Positions 3,324 to 34,579 of a DNA stretch of 40,514 bases are shown piece after piece. The stretch comes from a virus, in the IMG/VR virus record IMGVR_UViG_3300022602_000205, positions 1 to 40,514 of that record; one strand, 5' to 3'. Position 1 is the stretch's first letter; every line of letters begins with the position of its first letter. The notes under the pieces are model-generated. The model did no database searches, was not told where the DNA came from, and saw only the letters and a list, made by a program, of their open reading frames with translations. The position numbers were made by a program, and so were the translations under genes.

Positions 3324-3345
3324 TAATTAAATCTCCGGATTGTTA

Positions 3346-3381: not shown

Positions 3382-3406
3382 TTATACCAAAAGGAAAAAC
3401 TATATT

Positions 3407-9059: not shown

Positions 9060-12000
9060 ATGAGTTCAACCGCTAGACAAAACAACTTATTACTGGCAGA
9101 AGATTGGCAGAAAATTTATCAATCTTTCCGTAACGCAGACTTTCAAAGCTATGACTTTGATAACTTGCGTCGAACAATGATTGACTATATCCGTACAAAT
9201 TTTCCTGAAGATTTCAACGATTATATTGAGTCAAGCGAGTACTTGGCCCTTATCGACCTTATTGCATATATTGGTCAAAGCATAGCTTTCCGCGTTGATT
9301 TAAATGCTCGTGAAAATTTCTTAGAGCTAGCAGAGCGTCGTGAAAGTGTACTACGACTAGCAAGAATGATTAGTTATAATGCTAGTAGAAACGTACCTGC
9401 TAAGGGTTTATTAAAATTTAGCACAATACAAACTACAGAAAATGTATTAGACAGCAACGGTAGAAATTTATCTGGTCAATATATTACTTGGAACGATCCT
9501 AGCAATCCTAACTGGTATGATCAGTTTATTAAGATTTTAAATGCAGCATTCCCAACTACCCAACAGTTTGGGAGCCCGGCAGATAAAGGAACAATTTACG
9601 GAATCCCAACAGCACAGTATAGGTTTAATGCTACTAATTCAGATGTGCCTGTTTATGGATTTTCAAAGGCTGTTGCTGGTCGAGTAATGGACTTTGAAGT
9701 TACTAGTACAACATTTGCGAATCGTACTGAAATTTATGAAGAAGCACCGATGATTGGTAACAGTATTGCTTGTATATACAGCGATGACGGTTATGGCGCA
9801 GGTAGCCCAGGTACTGGTTTCTTTTTTAATTTCACACAAGGTACTTTAAATACCGGAACTTTTAATATTACAAATCCAAGTAGTAATGAGTCTGTTGATG
9901 TTGCTATACAGAATATCAACAATACAGACGTATGGTTATATGATGTAAATCAAAGCACAGGTCTTGAAAATGAATTATGGACACCGGTGTCAGCATTAAC
10001 AGGCAATAATATCATATACAATAACCTAAGTCAAAAAATTAAAAAAATCTATTCAGTAGTTACTAAAACAGGTGACACAATTTCTTTGGCGTTTGGTGAT
10101 GGTACATTCGGTCAACTACCGTTAGGTGCTTTTAGAGTATACTATAGAATTAGTAATGGATTACTATATACAATCAATCCAGCAGACATTATTAACGTGT
10201 CTATATCAATACCTTATACATCTTCACAAGGTCAAGTAGAAACATTAAAAATAGGTTTAAACTTAGCCACATCAGTTACTAATGCTACGCCAACTGAGAC
10301 AAACGCTAGTATTAAAACAAACGCACCACAGACATATTATACGCAAAACCGTATGATTACTGGAGAAGATTATAATATTAGTCCATTAAGTGCTAGCCTT
10401 CAAGTAGCAAAAGTTAAAGCAGTGAATAGAACAAGTAGCGGTATTAGTCGTTATTTTGATTTAACAGACCCAACGGGGAAATATAGTTCAACTAACCTAT
10501 TTGCTGATGATGGTATTGTATATCAACAAGATTATACCACAGGTACTAGTTTTACCTATGTAACACAAACTGATATTCAAGGTGTAATTGACAATAAGAT
10601 ATTATCTTTATTAGAAGATCCTAATCTTAGAAATTTTTATTATCAAAAATTTATTAACTATCTTACAACTAGTTTAAACATCTCTTGGAACGCAGTAACA
10701 ACCGATAGTAACAGCTCATCGGGATTTATTAGTGGCACTGGCACAGCAACTCCATACGCTGTAGGAACATACACATTAACTGATTTAAAATATGTAACTT
10801 CTAATGCGCTAATTAAATTTACAGCTCCAGCCGGCAAATATTTTGACATTAATAATAATAATGCTTTGGCATCCGGTTCACCAACAAAGCCAGGGCAAGT
10901 ACAATATTTGTGGGCCACAGTAGTTTCTGTTTTAGGAGACGGAACTGCTAACAGTGGAGGATTTGGACCAATAACTTTAAGTAAAGCAATTCCATCCACT
11001 GCCGTTGTATCACAAATTATTCCAGCATTTTCAACATCACTTAAATCAAGTGTTCAAACACAGATGATTGATTTAATATCTGCTAATGCTAGTTTTGGAT
11101 TAAGATACGATAGTGTGTTAAACAGTTGGAATATTATATTTGAAAATAATTTAAATGTCAGTAACAATTTTAGTCTAGAATATCAAGGCGATTTATCTAA
11201 TACACAAAAAGATGCTAGTTGGTTTTTATTATTCACGACCGACACTGAAACCTATACAATTACCACACGTTCACTTAGATATGTATTTGAAAGCGATAAA
11301 GAAGTAAATTTCTATTTTGATACAACTAATAAAATTTATGATGTTGTATCAAGCACTACTATTGTAGATCAAATAAAAATTTTAAATATTAATCCACAGC
11401 CAGATTTAACAGTGCCATTTACAATTAATTATAATTGGGAAATTGTTTCAGAATATATTGGGCAAGACGGTTATATAGATACTAAAAAAGTTATTGTAAC
11501 TTTTTCTGATCCTACAAATAGCGGAGTAGTTGACAATCCTCAAATGTTTTTAGACATTGTAGCACCGACAACTAATCCATTAAGTAAGTATATTGTACAA
11601 AAGAAATACGCCATCACACAAGGACAAGAAGACTATAAGTATGTCTTTAATGATCTACAAACTGGGCCAGTAATTATATTAAACAGTAAAAGTTCAGCCT
11701 ATCCGTTATCACAATGGACTGATGGTCAATATTTTTATTTTGTTGATGTTCAAACCGTATTCCAATATATTGCCTCAACTAGTACGTTATCACCAACATT
11801 AGATTATAAAGTTTATTCTGGAAGAGATAATTTACGATTCCAATATATTCATAGTGCTGATTATGATTCAAGAATTGATCCTGGATCCAGTAATATCATT
11901 GATTTGTATATTTTGACAAATAGTTATGATACAGAATTTAGACAATGGGTCGCTAACGGCGCTATTGTTGGTAACGAACCACTACCACCAAGTCAAGATT

Positions 12001-12518
12001 CTTTAAACAGTATGTTAGGAACTAATTTAAATTTAATTAAATCTATTTCAGATGAAATTATATATCACCCTGTAAACTATTTGCTATTGTTTGGAGCCGC
12101 TGCCGACCCAGCATTACAAGCAACATTTGAAGTTGTTATTAATCCTAATTCAGCAGTGAGTTCAGCGAATGTCAGCGCAAGAATACTAACAGCAATTAAT
12201 CAGTTTTTTGCTTTAGAAAACTGGGACTTTGGAGATACATTCTACTTTACAGAATTGTCAACATATGTAATGAATCAATTAGCACCAGATGTTACAAGTT
12301 TTGTTATCGTACCCAATCAAACCGGTCAATATTTTGGTAGTTTATTTGAAATACAGTGTCCGAGCAATTCAATATTTTTAAGTTGTGCTACAGCGGCAAA
12401 TATTCAAATTGTGTCTGGATTAACATCAACAAATCTTAAAACAGTTACAGGTACAGCACTAGCATCAGCGGCTACTAGCCAGCAGATCACCAGCGCAAAT
12501 TATGGGGCAAATAATTAA
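9060..12518 (+). CDS. 6: baseplate wedge protein gp6-like, enlarged
   Basis: Main ring-forming wedge protein. The N-terminus is clear: residues 36-120 contain YIRTNFPEDFNDYIESSEYL, LIDLIAYIGQSIAFRVDLNA, and ARMISYNASRNVPAKGLLKF, the gp6/baseplate-J-like signature. The C-terminal ~200 residues also fit: SDEIIYHPVNYLLLFGAAAD, then FFALENWDFGDTFYFTELST, and VPNQTGQYFGSLFEI, the part that dimerises in T4. The protein has 1152 residues against 660 in T4; the added length is in the middle, roughly 200-900, which is rich in Thr/Asn/Ser/Tyr beta-strand sequence and contains no domain I recognise. Its TAA overlaps the next ATG by one base (TAATG), so the giant gene is translationally coupled to it. 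Confidence 0.88.
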   Translation: MSSTARQNNLLLAEDWQKIYQSFRNADFQSYDFDNLRRTMIDYIRTNFPEDFNDYIESSEYLALIDLIAYIGQSIAFRVDLNARENFLELAERRESVLRLARMISYNASRNVPAKGLLKFSTIQTTENVLDSNGRNLSGQYITWNDPSNPNWYDQFIKILNAAFPTTQQFGSPADKGTIYGIPTAQYRFNATNSDVPVYGFSKAVAGRVMDFEVTSTTFANRTEIYEEAPMIGNSIACIYSDDGYGAGSPGTGFFFNFTQGTLNTGTFNITNPSSNESVDVAIQNINNTDVWLYDVNQSTGLENELWTPVSALTGNNIIYNNLSQKIKKIYSVVTKTGDTISLAFGDGTFGQLPLGAFRVYYRISNGLLYTINPADIINVSISIPYTSSQGQVETLKIGLNLATSVTNATPTETNASIKTNAPQTYYTQNRMITGEDYNISPLSASLQVAKVKAVNRTSSGISRYFDLTDPTGKYSSTNLFADDGIVYQQDYTTGTSFTYVTQTDIQGVIDNKILSLLEDPNLRNFYYQKFINYLTTSLNISWNAVTTDSNSSSGFISGTGTATPYAVGTYTLTDLKYVTSNALIKFTAPAGKYFDINNNNALASGSPTKPGQVQYLWATVVSVLGDGTANSGGFGPITLSKAIPSTAVVSQIIPAFSTSLKSSVQTQMIDLISANASFGLRYDSVLNSWNIIFENNLNVSNNFSLEYQGDLSNTQKDASWFLLFTTDTETYTITTRSLRYVFESDKEVNFYFDTTNKIYDVVSSTTIVDQIKILNINPQPDLTVPFTINYNWEIVSEYIGQDGYIDTKKVIVTFSDPTNSGVVDNPQMFLDIVAPTTNPLSKYIVQKKYAITQGQEDYKYVFNDLQTGPVIILNSKSSAYPLSQWTDGQYFYFVDVQTVFQYIASTSTLSPTLDYKVYSGRDNLRFQYIHSADYDSRIDPGSSNIIDLYILTNSYDTEFRQWVANGAIVGNEPLPPSQDSLNSMLGTNLNLIKSISDEIIYHPVNYLLLFGAAADPALQATFEVVINPNSAVSSANVSARILTAINQFFALENWDFGDTFYFTELSTYVMNQLAPDVTSFVIVPNQTGQYFGSLFEIQCPSNSIFLSCATAANIQIVSGLTSTNLKTVTGTALASAATSQQITSANYGANN

Positions 12519-15500
12519 TGGCAAATAGTAATATTCCAACTGGAAACGGTCTTAGCGTAAATTTATTACCAGATTTTTATCAAACTACTGCTAATAAAAA
12601 ATTCTTACAGGCTACGATTGATCAATTATATCAACCTGGAACGTTAACAAAAACAACCGGTTATATTGGAAGAAGAAACGCAAAGGCAGCATCTGGACCA
12701 GATGTCTATGTAGCTGCCGCTGACGCAACACGTCGCCACTATCAATTAGAGCCTGGTATAGTTGTTAAAGATCCATTAGGTAATGTAACATTTTTTAAAG
12801 ATTATATTGATTATATTAATCAGATAGGTGTGTTTGGTGGTATTACTTCAAATCACGAACGTCTGAACAAACAAGAATTTTATTCTTGGGATCCACATAT
12901 CGACTGGGACAAATTTGTTAATTTTCAAAACTATTATTGGTTACCTTATGGTCCAGATCCAATAAAAATTTATGGTCATGCTAAAGGTGTTACTAGCACA
13001 TACACAGTAAATTTACAATTACAAGGCGATGTTAACGAATATTTGTTTACTCCTAACGGAATAACATTAAATCCTATTCTTAAATTATATAGAGGACAGA
13101 CTTACACTTTTGAAATTACTAGCCCGGGACATCCTTTTAGTATTAAAACTTCTCGTTCATTGGGAGTTCAAAATAGATATTTGATTCCTGGTATTGATAA
13201 CCACGGCGTAACTGCTGGAACAATTACATTTACTGTTCCTGATAATGCTCCAAATATTCTCTATTACCAAAGCGAAGCTGATTTACAAGTTGGTGGGGTC
13301 ATCGAAGTATTTGATATTCTCGAGTCTTCAATACTCGATGTTGAGAATGATATTCTTGGTAAAAAGACCTACGTATTATCAGACGGAACACCATTAAGTA
13401 ATGGTATGAAAGTTAGTTTCGGCACTAATGTAACTCCTTCAAATTACTCTACAGGGCAGTATTATGTTGAAGGTGTTGGTACTGGAATTAAATTAATTTT
13501 AGAATCTCTTTTAGAAATTGTAAACCCGTATACAACTGACAAATCTGTTGAATTTGATACTACTCCTTTTGATATAGACCCATTTAGTGATAGTATTGGG
13601 TTTGCCGGAGTAAAAGATTATATTGTAATCAATCGTGCTAGTCGAGACCGTAATCCTTGGTCGAGATACAATCGTTGGTTCCATAAAGATGTAATTAATT
13701 CCATTGCGAAATATAATAATACAGTACCTAATCTTGATCAATCAGGTCGAGCTATTAGACCAATCATTGAATTTGAAGCAGATTTAAAATTATTTAATTT
13801 AGGTACAATCGCAACTGTAGACACAAGTTTAATTGATGATTATACAACTGATGTATTTTCTACAATTGAAGGATCAATAGGATATAGTGTCGATGGTGTT
13901 AAATTAGTAGCTGGACAAAAAATAATATTTACAGCAGATTCCGATCCACTAGTTAAGAATAAAACATTTGAAGTATCGTTTATTAATATAAAAGGTAAGT
14001 CGCAAATTCATTTAACTGAAGTATCGTCTCCGTTAGTAAATCAAACAACTATTGTCCTAGAGGGTATCAAGAATCAAAGTCAGATGTACTGGTTTGACGG
14101 CACTACTTGGATTAAAGGTCAGCAAAAAACAAATATTAATCAACAACCTAAATTTGATGTAGTTGATAATAACGGTACAAGTTTTGGCAATGTATCGGTT
14201 TATAGCGGTACAACATTTAGCGGTACTGACATTTTTTCTTATAAAATAAATTCTTCTAGTTCTAATAAAGATACTGCTTTAGGATTTCCGTTAACATATC
14301 AAAATGTTAATAATATCGGGGATATTGTTTTTACTTTTAATCTCGCCATTGATTCGTTTACCTACAAAGTTAATTCACAAGTAGTTACTAAAAAAATTAA
14401 TGTAGGTTATCTGTCAGGACAGTCATATGGGGGAAATACTGTTTATACTAACGGGTGGAAAACTGCTAAAACTACTAACGTACAGGCAGCCATTCGTATA
14501 TACAAAAATTCCAATTTAACAAATAATTTTAAATTAGATATCTTTGATGACATTAATAATCTTAATGACTTAGTAGTTCGAGTATATGTCAATGGTACTA
14601 AACTTTTACCTACTACCTACCAATTAGTTGATGCTGGAAAATATAAAGAAATTGTTCTTAACACTCCTATTTTAACTACCGATCTATTAACAATCAAAGC
14701 ATTTGCGGCACAGCCAATTAATACTAATGGCTACTACGAGATGCCTATTAATTTACAAAATAATTCGTTAAACGATGATATGGTTGATTTTACTTTAGGT
14801 GAAGTAATTGATCATGTTAATTCTATTGTAGATAATGTATCAGGGTTCTCAGGAGTATTTCCAGGAGTTAGCAATTTAAGAGACCTGGGAGATATTTCTG
14901 CTTACGGAACTAAATTTGTACAGCATAGCGGTCCACTAAGTCTAGCGATGTACCATATTGCTTCTGAATCAAATAATATTATAAAAGCAATTGAAACCAG
15001 TCGAGATGACTACAATACATTTAAGCGAAACTTTTTAACTGTAGCAGTATCATTAGGTGTTGATACAGATCCAGTTAAACATGTTGAATTAATTTTACAA
15101 GAACTTAATAGTAACAAACCAACTACCGCTCCATATTATTTTAGTGATATGGTTCCTTATGGAGCAAATACAACCAGCGATCTTAAAGTAGTAGATCCAA
15201 GAATTAAAACTTATCCATTAAGTAATGTATTTTCGTTAGATACATTATCTAATAAAGCAGTTGGTGTCTACCTAACATCAAACGGTGTAAAAACACAATT
15301 AGTATATGGAAGAGATTATACATTTAGTACTCAAGCAACTGTTATAATAGATAACAGTGTGGTAATGTTAGCCGGCGATATAATTACTACAATCGAGTAT
15401 GATACTACTGATGGATGCTTTGTGCCAATGACTCCTACTAAGTTAGGCATGTGGCCAGCATATGTTCCGCAAATTTATCTAGACACAACACTATCTGCCC

Positions 15501-18500
15501 CACAAAAGATGATCCAAGGGCACGACGGTAGTGTTATTTTAGCATACAATGATTATCGAGATGACTTAATATTAGAATTAGAAAAAAGAATTTTTAATAA
15601 TATTAAAGTCAAATATGATCCAGCAATATTTGATATAACTGATATTGTTCCTGGATATAATAGAACTACAGATTATAGCATATCAGAATTTAATCAAGTA
15701 CTAGCCCCAAGTTTTTATAAATGGACCGGGTTTGTAGGTGCTGATTTTAGTAAGCCGTTAAGTTACGACCGTGCGAACCCATTTACATACAACTATAAAA
15801 ATAATACTTCGCCAACCGATACTCCGGTTCCTGGTTATTGGAGAGGAATATATCGTTGGATGCTAGACACTGATCGTCCACATCTTTGCCCATGGGAAAT
15901 GTTAGGATTTAGCCAAGAGCCTCAATGGTGGAAACAAGTGTATGGTCCAGCGCCATATACTAGCAATAATTTAATCTTATGGCAAGATTTAACTAACGGT
16001 ATTGTTCGTGAACCAGGTGTTCCTTCTAAAATTTTACCAAAATATATCCGACCATTTTTGATAGATCACATACCTGTTGATGAATCAGGCAATTTAATAA
16101 GTCCTCTTTTGTCAGGACTTGCTTCCGGTACATTAACACCAGATACAAGTGATAATTTTATATTCGGTGATGTAAGTCCAGTTGAGTCAGCATGGAGACG
16201 TAGTAGCTATTATCCTTTCAGTGTAATTATTACATCCTTACTATTAACTCCAGCAAAAACATTTGGATTACTGTTAGATCGATCACGTATTGTTCGTAAT
16301 CTAGCAGGACAATTAATTTATAGTGATACTGGAATTCATGTTAAACCAGCAGACATAAAGATACCAAGCATCTATTCAAGTGCTGAAAGAGTACAAACTG
16401 CTGGTATAGTTAACTGGGTAGTTGATTTAATTTTAAATTATATTTTTAGTAATAATTTAAATTCATATCAAACATATGCTAATGACCTAGTAAATATGTT
16501 ACCTCAGTTGAGCTATAGAGTAGGCGCATTTACAAATAAAAATCAGTTTAATTTGTTATTAGAAAGCAAAACTCCATTATCAATAGGCAATGTATTCATT
16601 CCTCAAGAAGATTATAATATATTTTTAAACACATCAAGTCCGACAGCTAAGTTAACTTATAGTGGTGTAATTATTACTAAAGTACCAACTGGCGGATATG
16701 AGATAAAAGGTTATAGCAGAACACAACCATATTTTAAATATTATGCTCCTATACAATCAGGAATTTCTATTAATGTTGGTGGAATCTCAGAAAACTTTGT
16801 AACATGGAATGCCGGGTTGGAATATGCTGCCGGGCAGGTAGTAAAGTATGGTAATTCATTTTATAGAACAGTAACAACAGTTACGGCAGGTTCACCATTT
16901 AATCCTTTGTCATTTGCTTCGTTGGGTAGTTTGCCAATTGTTGGCGGAGTTAACGCACAATTTAGACAAGCATGGGATAAGACTACTGCTCTAGTATTAC
17001 CATACAGTACTGTGTTATCTACAGTTCAAGAAGTTGTTGATTTCTTATTAGGCTATGGTGAATGGTTAAAAGATCAAGGATTTAAGTTTGACGAATTTAA
17101 TAATAACTTAAACACTGTAGCAAACTGGGAAACCAGTGCTAAAGAATTTATGTTCTGGACTACTCAAAATTGGAGTTCAGGACAAGACAAGTGGAGCGAA
17201 TGGCTACCAAATCAACCATATAACTATGGAACTATTGTTCGTTACAATGGTGATTATTATAGCGCAGTTTATAATATACCAGCGTTGGATATTTTTGATA
17301 TTTCGCAATGGACATTATTAGCTGGGTTAAGTAATGTTGGTGCAAGTGTTATAAGTCTAAGCCCTGGCGCTAACGGGCTGACATTTGTAACTAAACTCAC
17401 AGTCGTTGACGACATTAATAATCAATTCAATCCATATGAAATATTTAAAGTTGACGGAACACCAATACATTCTAATCAATTAGATAGTTACAGAACAGGC
17501 AACACAGTTACATATAGTCCTCGAGGCAATGATGGAATTTATTGTGCTAGCTTCTACTTAATACAAAACGAACATGTTGTTATTATAAACAATACTGATA
17601 TTTTTAACGATGTTATCTATAGCCCGACTAGCGGATATAGAAGAGAACGTATTAAATTGTCAGCCTATGTTACTACCAACTGGTATGGTGGTTTAGATAT
17701 TCCCGGATTTATTTTTGATCAGGCGAGTATTAAAAGTTGGCAACCATGGCAAGATTACAGCATGGGAGATGTTGTAGTATTTCAAGGATATTATTACAGC
17801 GCCAATTCATTTATTGCGGGTACATCTGCGTTTATGTCAGCAGACTGGACACAGTTGGCTAATAAACCTACCCCCCAGATACTGCCAAACTGGACTAATA
17901 TTGCTACACAATTTACAGACTTTTATAGTCTAGATGTTGACAGTGTTGATAGTGCCCAGCAAACAATGGGTCAGCATTTGATTGGATACCAAAAACGTCA
18001 GTATTTGAATAACATCATCCAAGACGATGTAAGCGAATTTAAATTCTTCCAAGGCATGATCCGTGAAAAAGGTACACAAAATGTCCTTAATAAATTGTTT
18101 GGGGTATTAAACAATGACTCAGCAGAAAGTTTGACTTTCTACGAAGAATGGGCGTTGCGTGTTGGCGAATACGGCGCATCTAGCGCATTTGAAAATATCG
18201 AATTTATTTTAGATGAAAAATTAGTTAAAAATAATCCACAAGGTATTGTATTAACACCTAGAATTAATAATAATATTAGCTCATTCTTAATACAACAATC
18301 ACCAAACGATGTATATTTAAAACCACTAGGATATAATTCTAATCCGTTTCCTGTTTTACAAAATTATCGTCCTTTGTTGAGAACTGCAGGCTATGTTAAT
18401 TCTGATGATGTAACATTTAGCCTAGGATCGATAGCTGATATTACTAGCCAAGATATAACTAAATTATCAAACGGCCAATATGTATGGTGTGCGTTTGAAG

Positions 18501-21500
18501 GTGCAAGTTGGAACATTTATAAATTTACAGACTTGTTGATTCGAGTAACTGGGGTTACTTACGATAGTAGTTCAAACACTGTAACAATTTCTACAGAAAA
18601 TATAGTACCACTTGCTGTTGGATCATATGTTGGGCTAGCACAAGTTTCTATTTTAAATGGATTTTATAAAGTAACTAGTGTAACATTAAATCAATTTACT
18701 ATATCAGCAACTATAGCAAACTTCCCAGTACCGTTTGCTCAAGCAGAACAGTTAGTAGTTTTTGGATTGCTTACACAACATGTTACTGGGTCAATTGACA
18801 ATCTTGATACATTAAATTTAAATCGTATAGCACCTGGCACACTAGTTTGGATTGACGATAGTGTTAATGGCAAGTGGGCATCATGGAAATATAATCCAAT
18901 CTATACTACTAAAACATTTGATACCTTTGATCAACAAGATGGACTTGCCTATGGTTCGGCTATGGCAATAAATGGCCAGGGTAATATTTTAGTAATCGGT
19001 AACTCTATCGGAACAGTTACAGTATATGATAGACCTGGTATTAAATTAAATTGGTCACAACGTATTGGTTTATCGCGTCCTTTTATTGCGTTTAATAATC
19101 AAGTACTACCAAGCCAAGTAGCTACAGTTTTAGCACTAAGCAATGATGGTACATGGCTAGCAGTAGGAAGTCCTACCGCAGGATATGCCGCAACCACTTG
19201 GAATCTTCAACGTAATAATGGTCAATATGATTTAGGAACATACAATACTAATGATATTGTGTTGTATAATCAACAGTATTATCAAGCAGTAACATCAGTA
19301 CCAGCAAACACAGCACCAGCAACTAATTCTATCTATTGGGAAAAAATTCCATATGTAGCAGTTGATCAAGTATCTGGGTCTAATTCAACTCTAGCAGGAC
19401 AAGGTGTTATTAGTTTATATAAAAAGGAACTTAATAACAGTTACACATTAGTTGAAACTATAGTAAGCCCAACTCCATCCGCTAATGAAAATTTTGGATC
19501 AGCAATTGCCTTTGGCAATAATACGATGTATGTTGCTGCATCTGGCTATAGTAGTAATACTGGTAGAGTTTATAAATTATCTTATAGTGTAACGCCTATT
19601 GTTAACGCGGCTTATAATCCTGTTGGTAGTAGTTCATCAACGCTAGTTGTTTCATCAACTGCTGGAATTAAAGCAGGCATGGTAGTAATTGGTAGCGGAT
19701 TTACTAAAGGACAAAAAGTATTTTCAGTCTTGACTAAGATTGTTTTTAATTTTAGCACTAATTTGTCAAAAGTAGTTGCTGGAATGACAATCACAGGTAC
19801 CGGAGTTCTTCCAAACTTTACAGTTGTTAGAGTTGGATCAGAAGTGTCATCGTCTAATATAACTACAAACTATGTTATCGCTCAAGGTTTCCAAAATATG
19901 GACACTAGTATAACACAGGTTGAATTTGGTGGAAATGCTTCATTGACTTTTGTAATTCAATCAATTGAAAATATAAACACAGTATTACTTGACAGCACTC
20001 CTGACAGCACACCAAGCGGATCTTTAGAATTTGCCTTAGCCGGTTGGGGATATGATTCGACTGAACTATATACAGGGGCTACTACAGGTAGCAATCTTGG
20101 AAGCTCAATTACTACTACCCAGGCCAATGATACGCTAGTTATTGCGTCTTCTGGAGGATCAGTTACTGGCACAGTTAGCATTTATAAAAATACAGGAACA
20201 GGTTTTACTCTCTTAGAATCTAAAACAGGAACTACTACTAATTTTGGTCAAAGTATTGCTTTATCAAATACAGGTTTGTATCTTGCCATAGCAGATGATA
20301 TAATTAGTACTCCGACAATTAGTCGTCAGGGAACGGTTGTTGTTTACAATTATACTGGAACAGGATATGCCAAGTATCAAGAACTAGTAAATCATAGACC
20401 AGAAACCGACGGACAATTTGGTAATAAAATTTCGTTCATGAACGACTATGACACGCTAGTAGTGTATAGTAAAAATGGAGATGTAACTAGTAGCACGTTG
20501 TTTGATGCTAATACAACACGTCTTTCTAATAGTCAAACATTATTTGGAAATCCATATGTTCTTGATGGAACATCAGCAGTTCATCCTCTTACAACTTTTG
20601 ATAAAAATTCTACATCATTTATAGTCAATGAGCAAAACAACGGCCGTGTTGATGTATATGATATGTATAATACAAAATGGGTATTCAGTGAAAGTCTATC
20701 AACTGATACACAGTTCCGCACTGGATATGGCAAGAGTGTTGTCGCTGGAAATAATCATATCCTAGTAAGCGAGCCATATGCTGTAGATGGAAATTATCGT
20801 TCAGGAATTATATATGACTATGGTAAATTACCTAACACATATTCTTGGACTATTGATCGTCAAGAAGTAGATTTGCCAGATGTTTCTAAAATTAAAAAAG
20901 CATTCTTATACAATAAATCTTCAGGAAAATTATTAAAATATTTAGATGTAATTGATCCGCTACAAGGAAAAATTGCTGGTCCTGCTGAAGAAGAAATCAA
21001 ATATAAAACATTTTATGATCCAGCAAGATATTCTCAAGGAACTGCTAGCGTAATCATTAATCCTGATAATCACTGGGCTGATCAACAAGTTGGTCAACTA
21101 TGGTGGAATTTAAGCACAGCTAAATTTTTAAATACACAATTTAACGATCCTGTATATAGAAACAATACATGGAATACATTAGCCACAGGTGCTAGTATTG
21201 ATATTTACGAATGGATATCTAGCAGTCTGTTGCCAAGTCAGTGGGATTCTCAAGCAGATACTCCAAGTGGTCTAGCAAAAGGTATCAGTGGTACAAGTTT
21301 ATACGGTGATACTGCTTACAGTGTTATACAAAAATATGATAACATAAGCAAGAAATTCATTAATACATATTTTTATTGGGTTAAAAATAAAAAAGTTATA
21401 CCAAATGTCAACGGCAGAAATATGGCTGCAAATGACGTTGCTAAACTGATAGCCGATCCTCGAGGACAGGCTTATGTTTGTTTAGCGATTACAGGCACGA

Positions 21501-24500
21501 ATTCTCTTAGTTTAATCAATGCTGGTCAATATTTAAAAGATACAGATGTAGTGCTATCTATCGAATATTGGACTATTGATAAAACAGATCAAAATGCTCA
21601 CACACAATGGAAATTAATTAGTAATGATACTATTGTTAATATTCCAGATAACATTGAACAAAAGTGGTTTGATAGTTTATGCGGCGCCGATCAAGCAGGT
21701 CGTGAAGTTCCGGATATTACTTTACCTCCTAAGTTGCGTTACGGTATTGAGAATCGCCCACGTCAAGGAATGTTTGTAAATCGTATTGAAGCATTGAAAG
21801 AATTCTTTGAACGAGTAAATGCTGATTTGATAACTCAACAAATCTGTGAATCAAAAGATATTTCAAATTTAGAAAAATTTGATCCAGTTCCAACAAAGAT
21901 TTCTGGAATGTTTGATTTAACATTTGACACTAATGACGAACTTCAGTATGCTAATGTTGGAACATTCACATTACCAAAATTAACACCGATAATTACTAAT
22001 GGCGTGATTACAGGCATCAATATCATCGATGGCGGAAAAGGATACGTTAATGCTCCATTCATTGAAATTTCAGGTGCTGGTAAAGGTGCCGTTGTTAAAT
22101 CAATAATCAACTCGATTGGCACATTAACTGGTGCTACAATTATTAATGGTGGCGAAGGATATACTGATAGTACCTTATGTACTGTACGAAGCTACTCTGC
22201 TTTGATATTATCTGATAGCACTTCAAATTATACTTGGAGTATATATTCATATGATTCAACAAATCATATTTGGTCTAGAACATTAACATTATCATACGAT
22301 GTTCGCAACTATTGGAAAAAAGTTGACTGGTATGGATCTTATACAGATTCCTCAGGAAAAATAATATTTACAGCAACACAATTTACTGCGGCGGATTATA
22401 CAGTTAATACATTTGCTGATTTAAATTCTTTAACAGATATATATTCTGAATTAGCAAATATTAAATCTAAATCAACTGGACAACTGGTTAAAGTTCTTAA
22501 TGGCAATGCCGGCAAGTGGGTTCTGTTGTATAGATATTCTACAGCAGTATCAGTTGACTGGACACAAACATATTATGTTGTTGGTATCCAAGAAGGAACA
22601 ATACAATTTAGCAATAGATTATACAGCTACCAAGGAACCGATGTTGGATATGATTCAAACGTATTTGATGGTGGTGAATTTGACATTCAAGCTAGAACAG
22701 AATTAAGAATTATCTTAAACACTCTTAAAGATAAAATTTTAATTGACGATCTCAAACAAAATTATTTAGATTTATTCTTCACAAGTGTTCGTTATGCTCA
22801 TAGCGAACAACCTTATATTGACTGGATATTTAAAACTAGTTTTGTTCGTGCTACTCATAACGTTGGATCATTTACACAACCAGTTAATTATCCAGTTGAT
22901 AATTTAAGTAATTTCCAAGATTACATTAATGAAGTTAAACCTTATAGAACTAAGGTAAGAGAATATATTAGTCAATATACTAATTCAGCAGTTCCTGACA
23001 ATAGTCCTAGTGCTATAACTGATTTTGATCTACAACCAAATTATGAAAATAATAAAATTGTACCAATTAATACAGTATATTCAAATAACCAGGTTACGTC
23101 ATCGGATCCAGCTATCCAGTTATATCCATGGAAATTTTGGCTTGACAATGTAGGTTTTGGAGTAGTTGATATAATAATTACTAACCAAGGTAGCAATTAT
23201 TTAACTCCACCGACTATACGTATCATTGGTGCTAGCGGTTCCGGAGCAGAGGCTAAGGCTTATATTACTAACGGAAAAGTGAATAGAATATCACTGATTA
23301 CTAATGGAACGGGTTATCTTTCAGCACCAAGAGTAATATTTGATGGTGGACTAGCAGTTGGAGGAACACCAGCTACCGGCGTGGCTATTATCGGAAATAG
23401 TGTTATTCGTTCTAATTTGATCGGTATGAAGTTTGATCGCGTAGATCAAACATATTATATTAACACACTTTCACAAACTGAAACATTTACGGGTTCAGGA
23501 TCACGATTACAGTTTCCATTAATTTGGGCTCCAGATGTTCGTGTTGGTGAATCAAGTGTAACATTTAATGGTGTGCCTGTCCTTAGAGAACTATACAAAT
23601 TAACGGTTGTTAAAACTAAGGTTTCGGGATATACACAATATTCAGGAAGTATTACATTTAATGTTGAAGCAACACCTCCAAAGAATACAACAGTTGTAGT
23701 AAATTATAAAAAAGATATTAGCATCTTAAATGCTACTGATAGAATACAATATTATTATAATCCTACATCTGGACAATTAGGTAAAGATTTATCGCAACTA
23801 ATGACAGGAGTTGACTACGGTGGAGTAGTTGTTAACGGTTTAGGATTTAACGTTAGCGGCGGCTGGGATGTAAGTCCTTTCTTAAGTGAAACATGGGACA
23901 GTAGAGATCCAACATTTGATGATTATTTTGTTCAAGTAGGAGCAAATAATCATGTATTTGTATTGCCGTATACTCCGGCAAATAATACAAGTATTAACAT
24001 TTATTATATAAAGAAAAATATCATATCATATAATTCAGATAATGCTACTACTAAGTATGAATTTGATCTTAATTGGTTAACACCGAGTGTTAATGTAACT
24101 ATCCCTGTAAATACAATTGGTATTCATACTACCTACACAGGGTCAAGTGTTGTTAATCCAGGAACCTTACTCAATGTTAATAGTACAACAGGCATCGTTC
24201 CTGGCATGGTGTTATCTGGATCAGGATTTAATAACAGACAAACAGTTGTTAGAGTTATTAATTCAACAACTATTAGTATTAGCAGTCCGCCAGATTCTAT
24301 TCCTTCTGGTTCTATAACATTTTCTAATATTGCCGGTAGCAATGTATTATCAGTAGCTAGCCTAACTGGTTTAAAGGTTGGCGATATTGTAACGGCTGCT
24401 GGATCAATATTTAATTTTGAAACAACTATTGCCGGTATTAATTTAACTGATGGCCATATTACATTAGACCAAATCATACTAACTAATATTCCAGATAATA

Positions 24501-27337
24501 CTACTATTACATTTACAAGAACACTAGTCGAGCCAACAGATGTAATTATTAATAGTAATGGTTCTATTTTATTATCAGAACCATATCCGACAGGAACCAC
24601 AATTAATATTACAGGAACATCTGCTCCTTTAAGATTAGATGATCCTTATTATAATTTATATGACGGCACAACAGTACAACCAAACGGAAGAAAATCTGCT
24701 CCAGCAGGCACAATTATGGCAACTCCGGTTGTTGGACAGTCTGTAATAACAGATTCAATAGATGGCGGTGCCGCCCTAATTGTTTCATTTGCTACAGTTG
24801 ACGATGGCGGTACAGCTGGATCAACATTTATAGATGCGATCGACGGTACAACAACTAATAACGCAATTACAAATGTTATCGAGATTCCTGATACGTTTGT
24901 TGTAAACAGCGGTGATGAGTTTATTTTAAGACAAAGCACTAGTGACGGATCAATACCAATACCTGATACTGATTTTGACACAGCAATTTCAGGCGGTGAC
25001 ATTTCATACTCAACAGCAACAGGTTTAGCCGCTGACGATATTGTTCTTGACGGCGACGGTTTTACAACACCAACAAGTAGTCCAGCACCAGAAGAAGTTG
25101 TGCCAGGACAAGTAGTTGATACACTAGCAGTTAAAGTATTTGATCGAGCACAATCAGGATCGGCTGATATTCGTGTTAATAGCCATATAACTGACGGAAT
25201 TACTAATAAATTTTCAATCGGACAAATTCCTAATAGTTTAAGATCTGTAATTGTTAAACTTGGAGTATCGATAAAAACTTATGGTACTTTAGCAGATTAT
25301 ACAATTGATTATTCTAATGGTTTAGTGATTTTTAATTCTACACCAACTGCTAATCAAATCGTTAGCATATATAGTATTGGATTTAATGGAAGCAATATTT
25401 TAGATATCGATCATTATGTGGGCGATAACCGCACTGTTGAATTTATAACTAAAGCTAGCTGGATAACACCTGTAACAAGTCTAGTATATGTAGATGGCAT
25501 AGCAACATCGGTTGAATTATTTAAAACTGATAGTTCTTATGATTTTACCGGGGCCATTGGAATAAGATTTGCTGTTCCACCGGCTGCAGGAAAACTAATC
25601 AATTATATTATTGTTAGTGGAAGCCAACAAAAGTTTGCTATAACAAAAACAGAAACAGTACCAACTGATGGCAGATCAGCCAGTGCACCTTACACACTAC
25701 AATACCCAATCGGTAATTCTTTACCAAACGAATCAAGTATGATAGTGCGTGTTGATCAAAACATTTTACAAGCACCAAATAACAGTTATTTCACAATCTC
25801 TAATAATAAACTGACTTATACGATTGACCCAACAAAAGCATTACCTGGCACACAGGAAGTTAGTAATATTTTTGTTTATGCTAACGGTGATCTGTTAGTT
25901 GTTGGTAGAGACTATACAGTTGACCCATCTGGGATTTCTGTTAAGATTAATAAAAATACATATAACCAATACTCTGGAGGTAAACTGTTAGTTAGCCTAG
26001 CTGGTAAATCTGGTTATACATATAATCAAAATACTGGACAAATTACATTTGCGCAGTCTTATGACAATACGCACACAGTTGAAGTAATTAGTTCTTACAT
26101 CCATGATGTTCTCGATATTCAACGAACATCAATAGTTTATACATCTTCTGTATCATTAACTCCAGATACTGTTGAGTTTTATACATATAATGAAATCGGC
26201 GGGGGTATAATACATTTAGATCGTCCTATTATTAACAATCAATATGTTTGGGTAACTAAAAATACAACTTTATTAACGCCAAGTATTGATCATAAACTAA
26301 ACGAAGACCTTCAAACAATTACTCTATCTAAACCGTTAGCAGTAAACGATACTATTACATTGATGACCTTTGGTAGTAATGTGTTACCAGCATCTGGTAT
26401 TTCTTATATGATGTTTAAAGATATGTTAAATCGTGTAACTTATAAACGATTAAATCTTAATAAGAGAACTAGACTTGCTGAAGACTTGCGCTGGAATGAT
26501 ACGACTATTACAGTTGACGATGCTAGTAATTTAGATGTACCAAATAAAACTAATAATCGCCCAGGTATTATTGAAATCCGAGGAGAACGTATCGAATACT
26601 TTACACTTAACGGAAATGTATTAGGACAGCTACGCAGAGGAACATTAGGAACTGGGGTTTATAATTTAAATAGATCAGGTACATATGTACAAGGCATTGG
26701 AGCAAGTGAAACAATACCTTACAATGATACTGTTACAACAGAATTAATTACTTCAAGTGGCGGCACAAATATTGACCTTGGGTTTGTTCCAGCTAATGCT
26801 AATGAAATAGAAGTATTTGTTGGCGGATATAATTCTTTAGGTGACTGGAAACCAAATACATCTTATTCATTGGGTGATATTGTAAATATTGGACCATACA
26901 CGTATAGATGTACAACAGCTAATACTAGTTCGTCAGTGTTTGAAAAAGATCAGGCAAATTGGCATTGGTTCGTTGGAAACATTCGTTTAAAGAAACAAGC
27001 ATACAGTGTGTTTAATATAAACAATGGTCCATATAGTCCTACTGGTGACGTTAGCTTCCCAGCAGATTTTACTGTTGATGGAACCACTGCTAAGATAACA
27101 TTAACCAATCCATTAAGTTTTGGTACAAGAGTAACAGTAGTAAAACAAACTGGTATAGCATGGGATAGTATTACTAACATCTTAAATGATACTGGATCTA
27201 TTGCTAATTTTATTAAAGCCGCTCCAGGCGTATGGTATACTGAGTATAAGACAATAAGTAATACAAAGGGTGCGTCAACATTTGACAGCGCAACTAACAC
27301 GTTTGACAGTGGAAATTCAACATTTGATCAAGGATAA
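12518..27337 (+). CDS. giant 4939-residue baseplate/tail protein at the gp7 position, multidomain
   Basis: One uninterrupted frame of 14.8 kb. It follows gp6 where T4 has gp7 (1032 residues), and the N-terminus (FYSWDPHIDWDKFVNFQNYYWLP after ~125 residues, split here only in description) looks like a wedge anchor; gp7 homology itself is inference. Domains by eye: cupredoxin-like, ~168-268 (GQTYTFEI, PGHPFSIKT, ILYYQSEADLQVGG). CBM5/12-like modules at ~1429-1478, 1550-1603, 1739-1784, 2226-2278, 4774-4819. Seven-bladed FG-GAP-like propeller, ~2140-2775, with two insertions. GxGY repeats, ~3157-3217 and 3546-3610, flanking a segment with PYIDWIFKTSFVRATHNVG and EVKPYRTKVREYIS. GMVxxGSGF-type modules, ~2366-2510 and 3875-3940. 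Near the C-terminus TITVDDASNLDVPN and IIEIRGERIEYF, then three TFD units. No signal peptide or enzyme motif is seen. Base use resembles the neighbours. Structural role is likely; receptor or polysaccharide binding is inferred. Confidence 0.8.
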   Translation: MANSNIPTGNGLSVNLLPDFYQTTANKKFLQATIDQLYQPGTLTKTTGYIGRRNAKAASGPDVYVAAADATRRHYQLEPGIVVKDPLGNVTFFKDYIDYINQIGVFGGITSNHERLNKQEFYSWDPHIDWDKFVNFQNYYWLPYGPDPIKIYGHAKGVTSTYTVNLQLQGDVNEYLFTPNGITLNPILKLYRGQTYTFEITSPGHPFSIKTSRSLGVQNRYLIPGIDNHGVTAGTITFTVPDNAPNILYYQSEADLQVGGVIEVFDILESSILDVENDILGKKTYVLSDGTPLSNGMKVSFGTNVTPSNYSTGQYYVEGVGTGIKLILESLLEIVNPYTTDKSVEFDTTPFDIDPFSDSIGFAGVKDYIVINRASRDRNPWSRYNRWFHKDVINSIAKYNNTVPNLDQSGRAIRPIIEFEADLKLFNLGTIATVDTSLIDDYTTDVFSTIEGSIGYSVDGVKLVAGQKIIFTADSDPLVKNKTFEVSFINIKGKSQIHLTEVSSPLVNQTTIVLEGIKNQSQMYWFDGTTWIKGQQKTNINQQPKFDVVDNNGTSFGNVSVYSGTTFSGTDIFSYKINSSSSNKDTALGFPLTYQNVNNIGDIVFTFNLAIDSFTYKVNSQVVTKKINVGYLSGQSYGGNTVYTNGWKTAKTTNVQAAIRIYKNSNLTNNFKLDIFDDINNLNDLVVRVYVNGTKLLPTTYQLVDAGKYKEIVLNTPILTTDLLTIKAFAAQPINTNGYYEMPINLQNNSLNDDMVDFTLGEVIDHVNSIVDNVSGFSGVFPGVSNLRDLGDISAYGTKFVQHSGPLSLAMYHIASESNNIIKAIETSRDDYNTFKRNFLTVAVSLGVDTDPVKHVELILQELNSNKPTTAPYYFSDMVPYGANTTSDLKVVDPRIKTYPLSNVFSLDTLSNKAVGVYLTSNGVKTQLVYGRDYTFSTQATVIIDNSVVMLAGDIITTIEYDTTDGCFVPMTPTKLGMWPAYVPQIYLDTTLSAPQKMIQGHDGSVILAYNDYRDDLILELEKRIFNNIKVKYDPAIFDITDIVPGYNRTTDYSISEFNQVLAPSFYKWTGFVGADFSKPLSYDRANPFTYNYKNNTSPTDTPVPGYWRGIYRWMLDTDRPHLCPWEMLGFSQEPQWWKQVYGPAPYTSNNLILWQDLTNGIVREPGVPSKILPKYIRPFLIDHIPVDESGNLISPLLSGLASGTLTPDTSDNFIFGDVSPVESAWRRSSYYPFSVIITSLLLTPAKTFGLLLDRSRIVRNLAGQLIYSDTGIHVKPADIKIPSIYSSAERVQTAGIVNWVVDLILNYIFSNNLNSYQTYANDLVNMLPQLSYRVGAFTNKNQFNLLLESKTPLSIGNVFIPQEDYNIFLNTSSPTAKLTYSGVIITKVPTGGYEIKGYSRTQPYFKYYAPIQSGISINVGGISENFVTWNAGLEYAAGQVVKYGNSFYRTVTTVTAGSPFNPLSFASLGSLPIVGGVNAQFRQAWDKTTALVLPYSTVLSTVQEVVDFLLGYGEWLKDQGFKFDEFNNNLNTVANWETSAKEFMFWTTQNWSSGQDKWSEWLPNQPYNYGTIVRYNGDYYSAVYNIPALDIFDISQWTLLAGLSNVGASVISLSPGANGLTFVTKLTVVDDINNQFNPYEIFKVDGTPIHSNQLDSYRTGNTVTYSPRGNDGIYCASFYLIQNEHVVIINNTDIFNDVIYSPTSGYRRERIKLSAYVTTNWYGGLDIPGFIFDQASIKSWQPWQDYSMGDVVVFQGYYYSANSFIAGTSAFMSADWTQLANKPTPQILPNWTNIATQFTDFYSLDVDSVDSAQQTMGQHLIGYQKRQYLNNIIQDDVSEFKFFQGMIREKGTQNVLNKLFGVLNNDSAESLTFYEEWALRVGEYGASSAFENIEFILDEKLVKNNPQGIVLTPRINNNISSFLIQQSPNDVYLKPLGYNSNPFPVLQNYRPLLRTAGYVNSDDVTFSLGSIADITSQDITKLSNGQYVWCAFEGASWNIYKFTDLLIRVTGVTYDSSSNTVTISTENIVPLAVGSYVGLAQVSILNGFYKVTSVTLNQFTISATIANFPVPFAQAEQLVVFGLLTQHVTGSIDNLDTLNLNRIAPGTLVWIDDSVNGKWASWKYNPIYTTKTFDTFDQQDGLAYGSAMAINGQGNILVIGNSIGTVTVYDRPGIKLNWSQRIGLSRPFIAFNNQVLPSQVATVLALSNDGTWLAVGSPTAGYAATTWNLQRNNGQYDLGTYNTNDIVLYNQQYYQAVTSVPANTAPATNSIYWEKIPYVAVDQVSGSNSTLAGQGVISLYKKELNNSYTLVETIVSPTPSANENFGSAIAFGNNTMYVAASGYSSNTGRVYKLSYSVTPIVNAAYNPVGSSSSTLVVSSTAGIKAGMVVIGSGFTKGQKVFSVLTKIVFNFSTNLSKVVAGMTITGTGVLPNFTVVRVGSEVSSSNITTNYVIAQGFQNMDTSITQVEFGGNASLTFVIQSIENINTVLLDSTPDSTPSGSLEFALAGWGYDSTELYTGATTGSNLGSSITTTQANDTLVIASSGGSVTGTVSIYKNTGTGFTLLESKTGTTTNFGQSIALSNTGLYLAIADDIISTPTISRQGTVVVYNYTGTGYAKYQELVNHRPETDGQFGNKISFMNDYDTLVVYSKNGDVTSSTLFDANTTRLSNSQTLFGNPYVLDGTSAVHPLTTFDKNSTSFIVNEQNNGRVDVYDMYNTKWVFSESLSTDTQFRTGYGKSVVAGNNHILVSEPYAVDGNYRSGIIYDYGKLPNTYSWTIDRQEVDLPDVSKIKKAFLYNKSSGKLLKYLDVIDPLQGKIAGPAEEEIKYKTFYDPARYSQGTASVIINPDNHWADQQVGQLWWNLSTAKFLNTQFNDPVYRNNTWNTLATGASIDIYEWISSSLLPSQWDSQADTPSGLAKGISGTSLYGDTAYSVIQKYDNISKKFINTYFYWVKNKKVIPNVNGRNMAANDVAKLIADPRGQAYVCLAITGTNSLSLINAGQYLKDTDVVLSIEYWTIDKTDQNAHTQWKLISNDTIVNIPDNIEQKWFDSLCGADQAGREVPDITLPPKLRYGIENRPRQGMFVNRIEALKEFFERVNADLITQQICESKDISNLEKFDPVPTKISGMFDLTFDTNDELQYANVGTFTLPKLTPIITNGVITGINIIDGGKGYVNAPFIEISGAGKGAVVKSIINSIGTLTGATIINGGEGYTDSTLCTVRSYSALILSDSTSNYTWSIYSYDSTNHIWSRTLTLSYDVRNYWKKVDWYGSYTDSSGKIIFTATQFTAADYTVNTFADLNSLTDIYSELANIKSKSTGQLVKVLNGNAGKWVLLYRYSTAVSVDWTQTYYVVGIQEGTIQFSNRLYSYQGTDVGYDSNVFDGGEFDIQARTELRIILNTLKDKILIDDLKQNYLDLFFTSVRYAHSEQPYIDWIFKTSFVRATHNVGSFTQPVNYPVDNLSNFQDYINEVKPYRTKVREYISQYTNSAVPDNSPSAITDFDLQPNYENNKIVPINTVYSNNQVTSSDPAIQLYPWKFWLDNVGFGVVDIIITNQGSNYLTPPTIRIIGASGSGAEAKAYITNGKVNRISLITNGTGYLSAPRVIFDGGLAVGGTPATGVAIIGNSVIRSNLIGMKFDRVDQTYYINTLSQTETFTGSGSRLQFPLIWAPDVRVGESSVTFNGVPVLRELYKLTVVKTKVSGYTQYSGSITFNVEATPPKNTTVVVNYKKDISILNATDRIQYYYNPTSGQLGKDLSQLMTGVDYGGVVVNGLGFNVSGGWDVSPFLSETWDSRDPTFDDYFVQVGANNHVFVLPYTPANNTSINIYYIKKNIISYNSDNATTKYEFDLNWLTPSVNVTIPVNTIGIHTTYTGSSVVNPGTLLNVNSTTGIVPGMVLSGSGFNNRQTVVRVINSTTISISSPPDSIPSGSITFSNIAGSNVLSVASLTGLKVGDIVTAAGSIFNFETTIAGINLTDGHITLDQIILTNIPDNTTITFTRTLVEPTDVIINSNGSILLSEPYPTGTTINITGTSAPLRLDDPYYNLYDGTTVQPNGRKSAPAGTIMATPVVGQSVITDSIDGGAALIVSFATVDDGGTAGSTFIDAIDGTTTNNAITNVIEIPDTFVVNSGDEFILRQSTSDGSIPIPDTDFDTAISGGDISYSTATGLAADDIVLDGDGFTTPTSSPAPEEVVPGQVVDTLAVKVFDRAQSGSADIRVNSHITDGITNKFSIGQIPNSLRSVIVKLGVSIKTYGTLADYTIDYSNGLVIFNSTPTANQIVSIYSIGFNGSNILDIDHYVGDNRTVEFITKASWITPVTSLVYVDGIATSVELFKTDSSYDFTGAIGIRFAVPPAAGKLINYIIVSGSQQKFAITKTETVPTDGRSASAPYTLQYPIGNSLPNESSMIVRVDQNILQAPNNSYFTISNNKLTYTIDPTKALPGTQEVSNIFVYANGDLLVVGRDYTVDPSGISVKINKNTYNQYSGGKLLVSLAGKSGYTYNQNTGQITFAQSYDNTHTVEVISSYIHDVLDIQRTSIVYTSSVSLTPDTVEFYTYNEIGGGIIHLDRPIINNQYVWVTKNTTLLTPSIDHKLNEDLQTITLSKPLAVNDTITLMTFGSNVLPASGISYMMFKDMLNRVTYKRLNLNKRTRLAEDLRWNDTTITVDDASNLDVPNKTNNRPGIIEIRGERIEYFTLNGNVLGQLRRGTLGTGVYNLNRSGTYVQGIGASETIPYNDTVTTELITSSGGTNIDLGFVPANANEIEVFVGGYNSLGDWKPNTSYSLGDIVNIGPYTYRCTTANTSSSVFEKDQANWHWFVGNIRLKKQAYSVFNINNGPYSPTGDVSFPADFTVDGTTAKITLTNPLSFGTRVTVVKQTGIAWDSITNILNDTGSIANFIKAAPGVWYTEYKTISNTKGASTFDSATNTFDSGNSTFDQG
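18935..20845 (+). repeat. seven FG-GAP-like propeller blades encoded within the giant gene
   Basis: Seven units repeat the pattern FGxSIAxSxxGxxLxVG...GxVxVYxx. They start near bases 18950 (YGSAMAINGQGNILVIG), 19121 (VATVLALSNDGTWLAVG), 19490 (FGSAIAFGNNTMYVAAS), 20092 (LGSSITTTQANDTLVIAS), 20239 (FGQSIALSNTGLYLAIA), 20414 (FGNKISFMNDYDTLVVYS) and 20721 (YGKSVVAGNNHILVSEP). Blade 2 holds a CBM5/12-like insertion, and a GMVxxGSGF-type insertion separates blades 3 and 4. Seven is the blade number of integrin-alpha-type propellers. Confidence 0.6.
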
Positions 27338-27342
27338 TAAAG

Positions 27343-28437
27343 ATGTCGCAACAATTAATTAACGTAGGATCATCAACTAATGATGGTACCGGAGATAGTT
27401 TACGCAGTGGTGCTGTAAAAATAAATGCTAATTTTACAGAATTATATTCGCAAGTTGGATATACACTGCCGTCAGCTACTGCTTCAGCTATAGGCGGTGT
27501 GGCAATTCCGTCTGTAGCAACTAGCGGTCTTAATAATACTAATGGAGTGATTAGTCTTGCTACAGCATCAACTAGTCAGTTAGGAGGAGTTAAAGTAGAT
27601 GGAACAACTGTTACTATTAGTAACGGTGTTATAAGTGCTCCAGCGGCATCACCATATACACTACCAACAGCATCGACTAGTATTAAAGGCGGTGTTAAAG
27701 TAGATGGAACAACTATTACCATTGACGGAAATGGTGTTATTAGTAGCGGTGTTAATAATTATATTTTGCCAGTAGCGACTACTTTACAACTAGGCGGAGT
27801 TAAAGTCGATGGTTCTACTATTACAATTAATGCCGGTGTAATTTCAGCTAATTATTCTTCTTATAATTTACCAACTGCAAGTACAACACAGTTAGGCGGT
27901 GTTAAGATTGATGGAACTACAATTACATTAAATGGTAGCAATCAACTAGTTGCTACTGCGTACAGTTTACCAACAGCAACTACATCTGTATTAGGCGGAG
28001 TTAAAGTCGACGGGTCGACAATTACAATCAGTGGCGGTACTATCAGTGCTAACGGGTTAAGTAATCGCTCAACTGTGTCAACAACTACAGCAAGTATCAC
28101 AGCTACTTCTAGCGCAACGGCAACAGTCGCAGCCGCTAAAGGTTATGCTTTGTATAGCATCCAAGTATCGGCAGGTGCGTGGGTCACAGTTTATACAAGT
28201 TCAACTGCGCAAAGTAATGATGCCAGCAGAAGTATATCAATGGATCCGACTCCAGGTAGCGGAGTGATTGCTGAAGCGATATCTACAACAGCAACTACAA
28301 CTTATTTTACACCTGCTGTATACGGATACAATGCTGATAATAGTCCTACTACAAATATGTATTTGAAAATTTATAATAACAGCGGTAGTACTACTGCTAT
28401 CACAGTTACAGTAACATATCTTAAATTAGAAGCATAA
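27343..28437 (+). CDS. tail fibre protein with five LGGVKVDGTTITI repeats
   Basis: Fibre of 364 residues. The N-terminus LINVGSSTNDGTGDSLRSGA followed by VKINANFTELYSQVG is the attachment motif common in fibres of T4-like aquatic phages. Residues ~50-235 are about 34-residue repeats with the core GGVKVDGTTITI...NGVISA. The C-terminal ~130 residues (YALYSIQVSAGAWVTVYTSS, then DPTPGSGVIAEAI, then YLKIYNNSGSTTAITVTVTY) form a separate beta domain that I recall from other marine phage virion proteins. It starts five bases after the giant gene stop with AAGG ahead of the ATG, and its stop is one base before the peptidase ATG. Likely a trimeric shaft with a tip domain; receptor unknown. Confidence 0.72.
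   Translation: MSQQLINVGSSTNDGTGDSLRSGAVKINANFTELYSQVGYTLPSATASAIGGVAIPSVATSGLNNTNGVISLATASTSQLGGVKVDGTTVTISNGVISAPAASPYTLPTASTSIKGGVKVDGTTITIDGNGVISSGVNNYILPVATTLQLGGVKVDGSTITINAGVISANYSSYNLPTASTTQLGGVKIDGTTITLNGSNQLVATAYSLPTATTSVLGGVKVDGSTITISGGTISANGLSNRSTVSTTTASITATSSATATVAAAKGYALYSIQVSAGAWVTVYTSSTAQSNDASRSISMDPTPGSGVIAEAISTTATTTYFTPAVYGYNADNSPTTNMYLKIYNNSGSTTAITVTVTYLKLEA
27583..28030 (+). repeat. five in-frame ~100-bp fibre repeats
   Basis: The GGVK(V/I)DG(T/S)T core begins at bases 27583, 27688, 27793, 27895 and 27994, i.e. spacings of 105, 105, 102 and 99 bases, all multiples of three. A degenerate sixth unit (AIGGVAIPSV) precedes them. The DNA diverges at third positions while the protein is kept, so this is a selected coding repeat rather than a fresh duplication. 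Confidence 0.85.
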
Positions 28438-34531: not shown

Positions 34532-34545
34532 TCAGCCAAATTTAT

Positions 34546-34553
34546 GATAAATA
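34546..34553 (+). promoter_or_regulatory. late-promoter-like box GATAAATA
   Basis: GATAAATA followed by C lies in the 48-base gap after fibre paralogue 2, 26 bases before the ATG at 34580. The eight bases are identical to the box at 30101. AAGGA follows at 34563-34567. Confidence 0.62.
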
Positions 34554-34579
34554 CACTGAAATAAGGAACGAGCGACACC

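Follow-up and report, generated by a model that had tools for sequence, protein, structure and literature searches.

The DNA analyzed here (referred to as the window) is a whole IMG/VR virus contig of 40,514 bases, and on its plus strand (12518-27337) it encodes a giant virion protein of 4939 aa with a predicted mass of approximately 543 kDa. This protein is probably a structural component of the tail baseplate in a RaK2-type jumbo phage, i.e., a wedge or periphery protein with exchangeable outer modules. Judged from its sequence, it is a new, unusually long member of a known, little-studied family of jumbo-phage virion proteins, PHROG 10938. A preliminary description of the same DNA had regarded it as a tail or baseplate protein at the gp7 position with an apparent wedge-like N-terminus; the tail-structural identity was retained, based on PHROG 10938 and on the homolog found in CBB virions, whereas the homology to gp7 found no support. 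The gene should be labeled 'gp7-position giant baseplate protein, PHROG 10938', and not gp7.

Gene neighborhood

The genes of the window are arranged in the order gp46-gp47-gp55 (minus strand), a virion protein, gp53, a further virion protein, gp5, gp25, gp6, the giant gene, a gp9/10-like gene, a protease and fiber genes, with the names gp46 and gp47 assigned from resemblance and from the synteny shared with RaK2. The gp25-like baseplate wedge gene (8572-9006, plus strand; phrog_261, phrog_43) is followed by the homolog of baseplate wedge gp6 (9060-12518, plus strand; phrog_10646 with E=1.9e-301, phrog_219 with E=1.9e-17), whose stop codon overlaps the ATG of the giant gene by one base (TTAATGG); a GGGG lies upstream of this ATG. 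Downstream, where gp8 and gp9 would follow, a gene for a T4 gp9/10-like fiber connector is located (27343-28437, plus strand; PF07880, phrog_6942, phrog_958, phrog_677). RaK2 and PA5oct show nearly the same gene order as the window, and the synteny gp46-gp47-gp55-...-gp53-...-gp5-gp25-gp6-giant, present in both, is found in part in Atu_ph07, Phosso and CBB. The giant gene normally lies directly after gp6, its start often being coupled to gp6 by overlapping start and stop codons, and a genome-wide search revealed that the gp6 family adjoins it in all tested relatives except SCTP-2. The giant of the window, positioned directly after a phrog_10646 gp6 homolog, shares this feature of the family.

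Further genes of the window were recorded. Two genes after the giant, the tail cluster contains a sedolisin-like protease of 546 aa (28439-30079, plus strand) with a pro-kumamolisin activation domain, a subtilase-type domain and the E...D and GTSATAP motifs. Among 50,697 phage records it had no match (E<=1e-5), but it was found on six IMG/VR virus contigs, one of them 354 kb long and one with the protease just downstream of the giant. Three successive fiber-like genes (30741-36064) have a common N-terminal segment (phrog_15511, phrog_14394, phrog_8309) and differing C-terminal parts, as in a duplicated fiber set. Two adjacent genes at 39147-40512 show similar N-terminal patterns (VLDSDYIIN and VLDSDMLL) reminiscent of glycosyltransferases; no significant family match was obtained for this pair.

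The PHROG 10938 family

In a profile search the giant matched PHROG 10938 (virion structural protein; phrog_10938) with E=0 and 1055.9 bits in five stretches, and the match across the core places it within the family. A tblastn search with residues 1028-2027 as query identified 59 sequenced phage records at 22-27% identity, almost all of them jumbo phages of enterobacteria, Pseudomonas, Agrobacterium, Sinorhizobium, Xanthomonas, Vibrio and Salicola. Close relatives of the giant are encoded on at least 597 IMG/VR stretches, and a broader profile confirmed 549 stretches. When viral models were searched by Foldseek with the first 1200 residues, the same family was returned along the length, with a TM-score of approximately 0.67 for Atu_ph07. 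By megablast the giant had no match among phages and only distant protein matches were found; searching the PDB with the complete sequence gave no match, and no solved structure, localization or tested function was found for any PHROG 10938 member.

The named members (RaK2 gp465, CBB_236, PA5oct gp355, Atu_ph07 gp180, Phosso and SCTP-2 gp140) share with the giant of the window a core over most of the length and the giant size, and in all of them but SCTP-2 the gene lies after gp6. Their sizes are 3326 aa (RaK2), 3340 aa (CBB), 3807 aa (SCTP-2), 3857 aa (PA5oct), 4449 aa (Atu_ph07) and 4555 aa (Phosso), so that the protein of the window, with 4939 aa, exceeds these members, and it differs from them by extra cupredoxin-fold, propeller-like and carbohydrate-binding modules (CBMs) and by a longer C-terminal repeat part. 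Across the family, sizes range from 3.3 to 5.7 thousand aa, a span in which the protein of the window does not stand out.

Relationship to T4 gp7 and gp8

In T4 the gene order is gp6-gp7-gp8-gp9-gp10. The assignment of the giant to the gp7 position, made in the preliminary description, holds, as the order gp25, gp6, giant, gp9/10-like gene puts it in the place of gp7 and gp8. The order gp6-gp7-gp8 itself is not present, the gp9/10-like gene following the giant at once. The position suggests an alternative that we regard as possible, yet rather doubtful, namely that the giant is a genuine T4 gp7 that has greatly expanded, i.e., a diverged wedge initiator with insertions. Besides the same position after gp6, this alternative can draw on a weak KGT...LF motif of 24 residues (residues 1849-1872; 18062-18133, plus strand), in which the sequence from residue 1849 (EKGTQNVLNKLFGVL) resembles, in register, the KGT motif of T4 gp7 (STKGIEASYKFLFKVL) and of the cyanophage gp7-position giant (SSKGTDQSFEILFRAL). 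As this cyanophage giant, located at the same position, keeps the gp7 motif, giant gp7 proteins do exist.

Against an expanded gp7, HMM-HMM comparison (hhalign) of 11 regions of the giant with T4 gp6, gp7, gp8, gp9, gp10, gp11 and gp53 gave no match in any region, and the T4 gp7 family (phrog_964) had no match in a genome-wide search of nine giant-bearing genomes or contigs, while the same search was positive for T4, the KVP40-type phage V09 and cyanophage RB11-B. The wedge-like N-terminus of gp7 type that had been proposed earlier was thus not confirmed. The profile match of the KGT motif had an E-value of approximately 0.004 in one of some 30 sequence windows tried, which is below significance and near chance, compared to E=8e-9 for the control of cyanophage against T4 gp7, and the structural model of residues 1180-2100 (mean pLDDT 72) falls below 60 in the KGT region. 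The motif was not accepted as proof of kinship with gp7 and may serve as a lead only. In eight giant-bearing records, the gp8 family matched only through its inserted GxGY repeat and not through the gp8 ends, and no full gp8 was detected. As far as sequence comparison reaches, the giant is not a gp7: it has the position after gp6 and possibly the KGT...LF motif in common with the T4 wedge initiator, but it is 4.8 times longer, lacks detectable sequence homology and is not followed by a gp8 gene.

The T4-like cyanophage RB11-B encodes a protein of 4337 aa (L239, 4447-19141) that is annotated as baseplate wedge initiator and lies at the gp7 position after gp6. The gene order is gp25-gp6, the giant, and then a minor tail protein and gp8. 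Similar to the giant of the window, it is a giant single-frame protein directly after gp25-gp6, and both contain GxGY repeats and a small RGT-type module. It differs by a gp7 motif near its N-terminus, by the separate gp8 that is kept and by another order of modules. No core homology between the two giants was found, only repeat modules being common to both, and the cyanophage gp7-position family phrog_2885 was not among the matches of the giant of the window at E-values up to 1. Therefore, giant size at the gp7 position exists in two forms, and RB11-B is a separate case of gp7 expansion.

Conserved core and exchangeable modules

The anatomy of the giant was derived from an alignment of 26 family members. 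Such a comparison of insertion points with the gp7-position genes of relatives had been proposed as a check on the preliminary description, and it separates core from variable parts. The core kept in distant phages comprises residues 1-156, 300-2000, 2790-3100 and 3400-3500 (boundaries approximate), while the variable parts (residues 2000-2800, 3100-3330, 3830-4100 and 4740-4820) differ among relatives by gains or losses of tens to hundreds of residues. These data show that the giant consists of a conserved core and swappable modules. The N-terminal core part (residues 1-156; 12518-12985, plus strand) aligns with RaK2, PA5oct, Atu_ph07 and SCTP-2, and the N-terminal AlphaFold model is confident (pLDDT 85.6, pTM 0.79). 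The main core (residues 300-2000; 13415-18517, plus strand) is common to the named jumbo phages in the alignment and in searches of relatives. The second and third core blocks in the alignment encompass residues 2791-3100 (20888-21817, plus strand) and 3400-3500 (22715-23017, plus strand).

Between the first two core parts, residues 157-268 (12986-13321, plus strand) form an insertion that is largely missing in RaK2. In a structural comparison (VIA-align) it matches the cupredoxin β-sandwich fold of 2dv6 over 99 residues (Z 11.2, rmsd 2.1). The type-1 copper ligands, Cys and two His, were not found: the expected Cys position is occupied by Q, V or I, there is no conserved His at residues 251-257, and the one candidate His, located in an SPGHPF stretch, is mostly replaced by Asn in the relatives. 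The domain shares 44% identity with a part of the tail-fiber proteins of Synechococcus phages, a likeness that suggests an exchange of modules between phage groups.

The Pfam family PF02839 (carbohydrate-binding module family 5/12, CBM5/12) matched the giant in five stretches with 52.1 bits against a curated cut-off of 26.2. Modules 1 (residues 1428-1472; 16799-16933), 2 (residues 1560-1603; 17195-17326) and 3 (residues 1739-1782; 17732-17863) are part of the core, module 4 (residues 2233-2277; 19214-19348) belongs to a variable region, and module 5 (residues 4774-4820; 26837-26977) is accessory and absent in several relatives; all five are encoded on the plus strand. Modules 1-3 are present in close relatives, and PA5oct, Atu_ph07 and Phosso retain at least one of them, so that these modules seem to be structural. 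Module 2 can be superposed on a 45-residue baseplate module of Milano phage (8fqc_P1; Z 7.9, rmsd 1.1 Å), which is, however, a single module within another baseplate protein, and the modules of the window are putative sugar-binding modules. The many adhesion-type modules of the preliminary description are indeed present, but adhesion decoration does not describe all of them, since the conserved core contains three of the five CBM-like modules. Two relatives (G007 and G013; L326 and L327) encode further tandem giant ORFs of 2849, 4892, 1963 and 4042 aa, which start with a CBM5/12-like module (MAEFKLGRIKFVW...) and represent a second giant protein family.

The variable region of residues 2100-2790 (18815-20887, plus strand) is propeller-like, with FG-GAP/WD40-type hits that are clearer in relatives, and it is mostly absent in RaK2. 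Residues 3122-3250 (21881-22267, plus strand) contain the GxGY repeat module, of a kind seen in other T4-like virion proteins and common to phrog_460, cyanophage gp8 and the cyanophage giant. Beyond the third core block lie the hypervariable segment of residues 3830-4100 (24005-24817, plus strand), where at most several hundred residues are inserted or missing in relatives, a small module (residues 4645-4697; 26450-26608, plus strand) that also occurs at the N-terminus of the gp7-position giants of cyanophages (hhalign probability 75.6, E=2.4e-5), and short C-terminal TFDS/TFDQG repeats (27275-27327, plus strand). In PDB fold searches with models of the giant, the top matches listed were those of the cupredoxin and CBM modules; gp7 was not among these top matches, which counts neither for nor against a gp7 fold. 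Matches of the 1180-2100 model to ubiquitin E1 enzymes (Z approximately 7) were disregarded, being at the level of a common β arrangement.

Virion evidence and probable placement in the baseplate

Evidence for the presence of the giant in virions comes only from relatives. CBB_236 was identified in purified CBB virions by mass spectrometry with 21 unique peptides and a coverage of 7.72% (PMC5259590, Table 4), and PA5oct gp355 is marked ESI-MS/MS in its record. For phAPEC6, gp245 (381.88 kDa, 17 peptides) is listed beside the gp6-sized wedge protein gp244 (PMC7247149); gp245 was taken as a homolog of the giant by position and size only.

We infer that in each of the six wedges the core (approximately residues 1-156, 300-2000, 2790-3100 and 3400-3500) is packed against gp6, where it would do the structural work of T4 gp7 and gp8. 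The cupredoxin-fold, propeller-like, accessory CBM-like and β-repeat modules would project at the rim and contact fibers or the cell surface, and swapping them would leave assembly undisturbed. Were six copies present, the baseplate would gain approximately 3.3 MDa. The placement in the wedge is proposed because of the gene order and the missing gp7 and gp8 homologs. SCTP-2, in which the giant is not beside gp6, counts against it, and the absent gp7 homology also fits another part of the baseplate such as a peripheral ring or whisker. A further point against this picture is that three CBM-like modules belong to the core.

It is unlikely that the giant is mainly a host-recognition or whisker protein whose gene merely lies beside gp6. 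CBB and phAPEC6 have hairy appendages whose source must be accounted for, their whiskers being of unassigned origin (PMC5259590; PMC7247149), and the giant has many binding-type modules. However, the authors of the CBB study expect that GAP32 lacks whisker genes (PMC5259590), yet this phage has the giant gene, and both the long conserved core and the location beside gp6 in distant phages point to a structural role.

Integrity and selection of the giant frame

The giant gene is a real, intact gene that is selected over its whole length. From the ATG at 12518 to the stop codon ending at 27337 it is a single open frame, and its 14,820 bases make up 36.6% of the window, whereas the longest stop-free run in 200 shuffles of the same bases was 146 codons. 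The GC content by codon position is coding-like and uniform across the frame (GC3 approximately 0.17-0.27 compared to GC1 approximately 0.40-0.46). In 24 of 24 IMG/VR contigs searched with the N- and C-terminal ends of the giant, both ends lie within one long frame, and all 20 fully read IMG/VR relatives have one uninterrupted giant frame of 4520-5658 aa. Within its clade the giant of the window is of ordinary length and not the longest. The ratio dN/dS, taken per 1000-codon block in three moderately diverged pairs of relatives, was approximately 0.1 in every block (e.g., dS 0.96 and dN 0.10 for the pair L132/L135), which indicates that selection acts on the full length, variable modules included. 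The single frame of 14.8 kb without stop or frameshift over more than a third of the window, and its maintenance by selection, had been noted in the preliminary description and are borne out.

Public records do contain broken frames, which may be real or may be assembly errors: in the relative L027 the giant is split into two overlapping frames of 2996 and 992 codons, for which error and mutation are both possible, and in the jumbo-phage records K64-1, SD-2 and SD-6 several annotated pieces are found at the giant locus. The possibility that two or more genes were joined in assembly or sequencing, to which these splits and the extreme length of the frame might point, was rejected as practically inconceivable given the 20 relatives with one frame end to end, the named complete genomes with giant versions of 3.3-4.6 thousand aa, and the low dN/dS throughout.

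Implications for jumbo-phage baseplates

A more far-reaching idea, put forward tentatively, is that in RaK2-type jumbo phages one giant polypeptide replaced both T4 wedge proteins, gp7 and gp8, and also forms an outer host-contact ring. Six chains of approximately 0.54 MDa would then be the frame for propeller, CBM-like and β-repeat modules that are swapped to change host contact, and the cyanophages would have reached the same giant gp7-position design separately. PHROG 10938 giants occur in dozens of isolated jumbo phages and on hundreds of metagenomic virus contigs and are among the largest proteins of these phages. As the searched genomes contain no gp7 homolog and no full gp8, it becomes testable whether a quite different giant protein can form the basis of baseplate wedges. 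The map of core and exchangeable modules indicates which regions merit structure determination and which merit tests of host contact.
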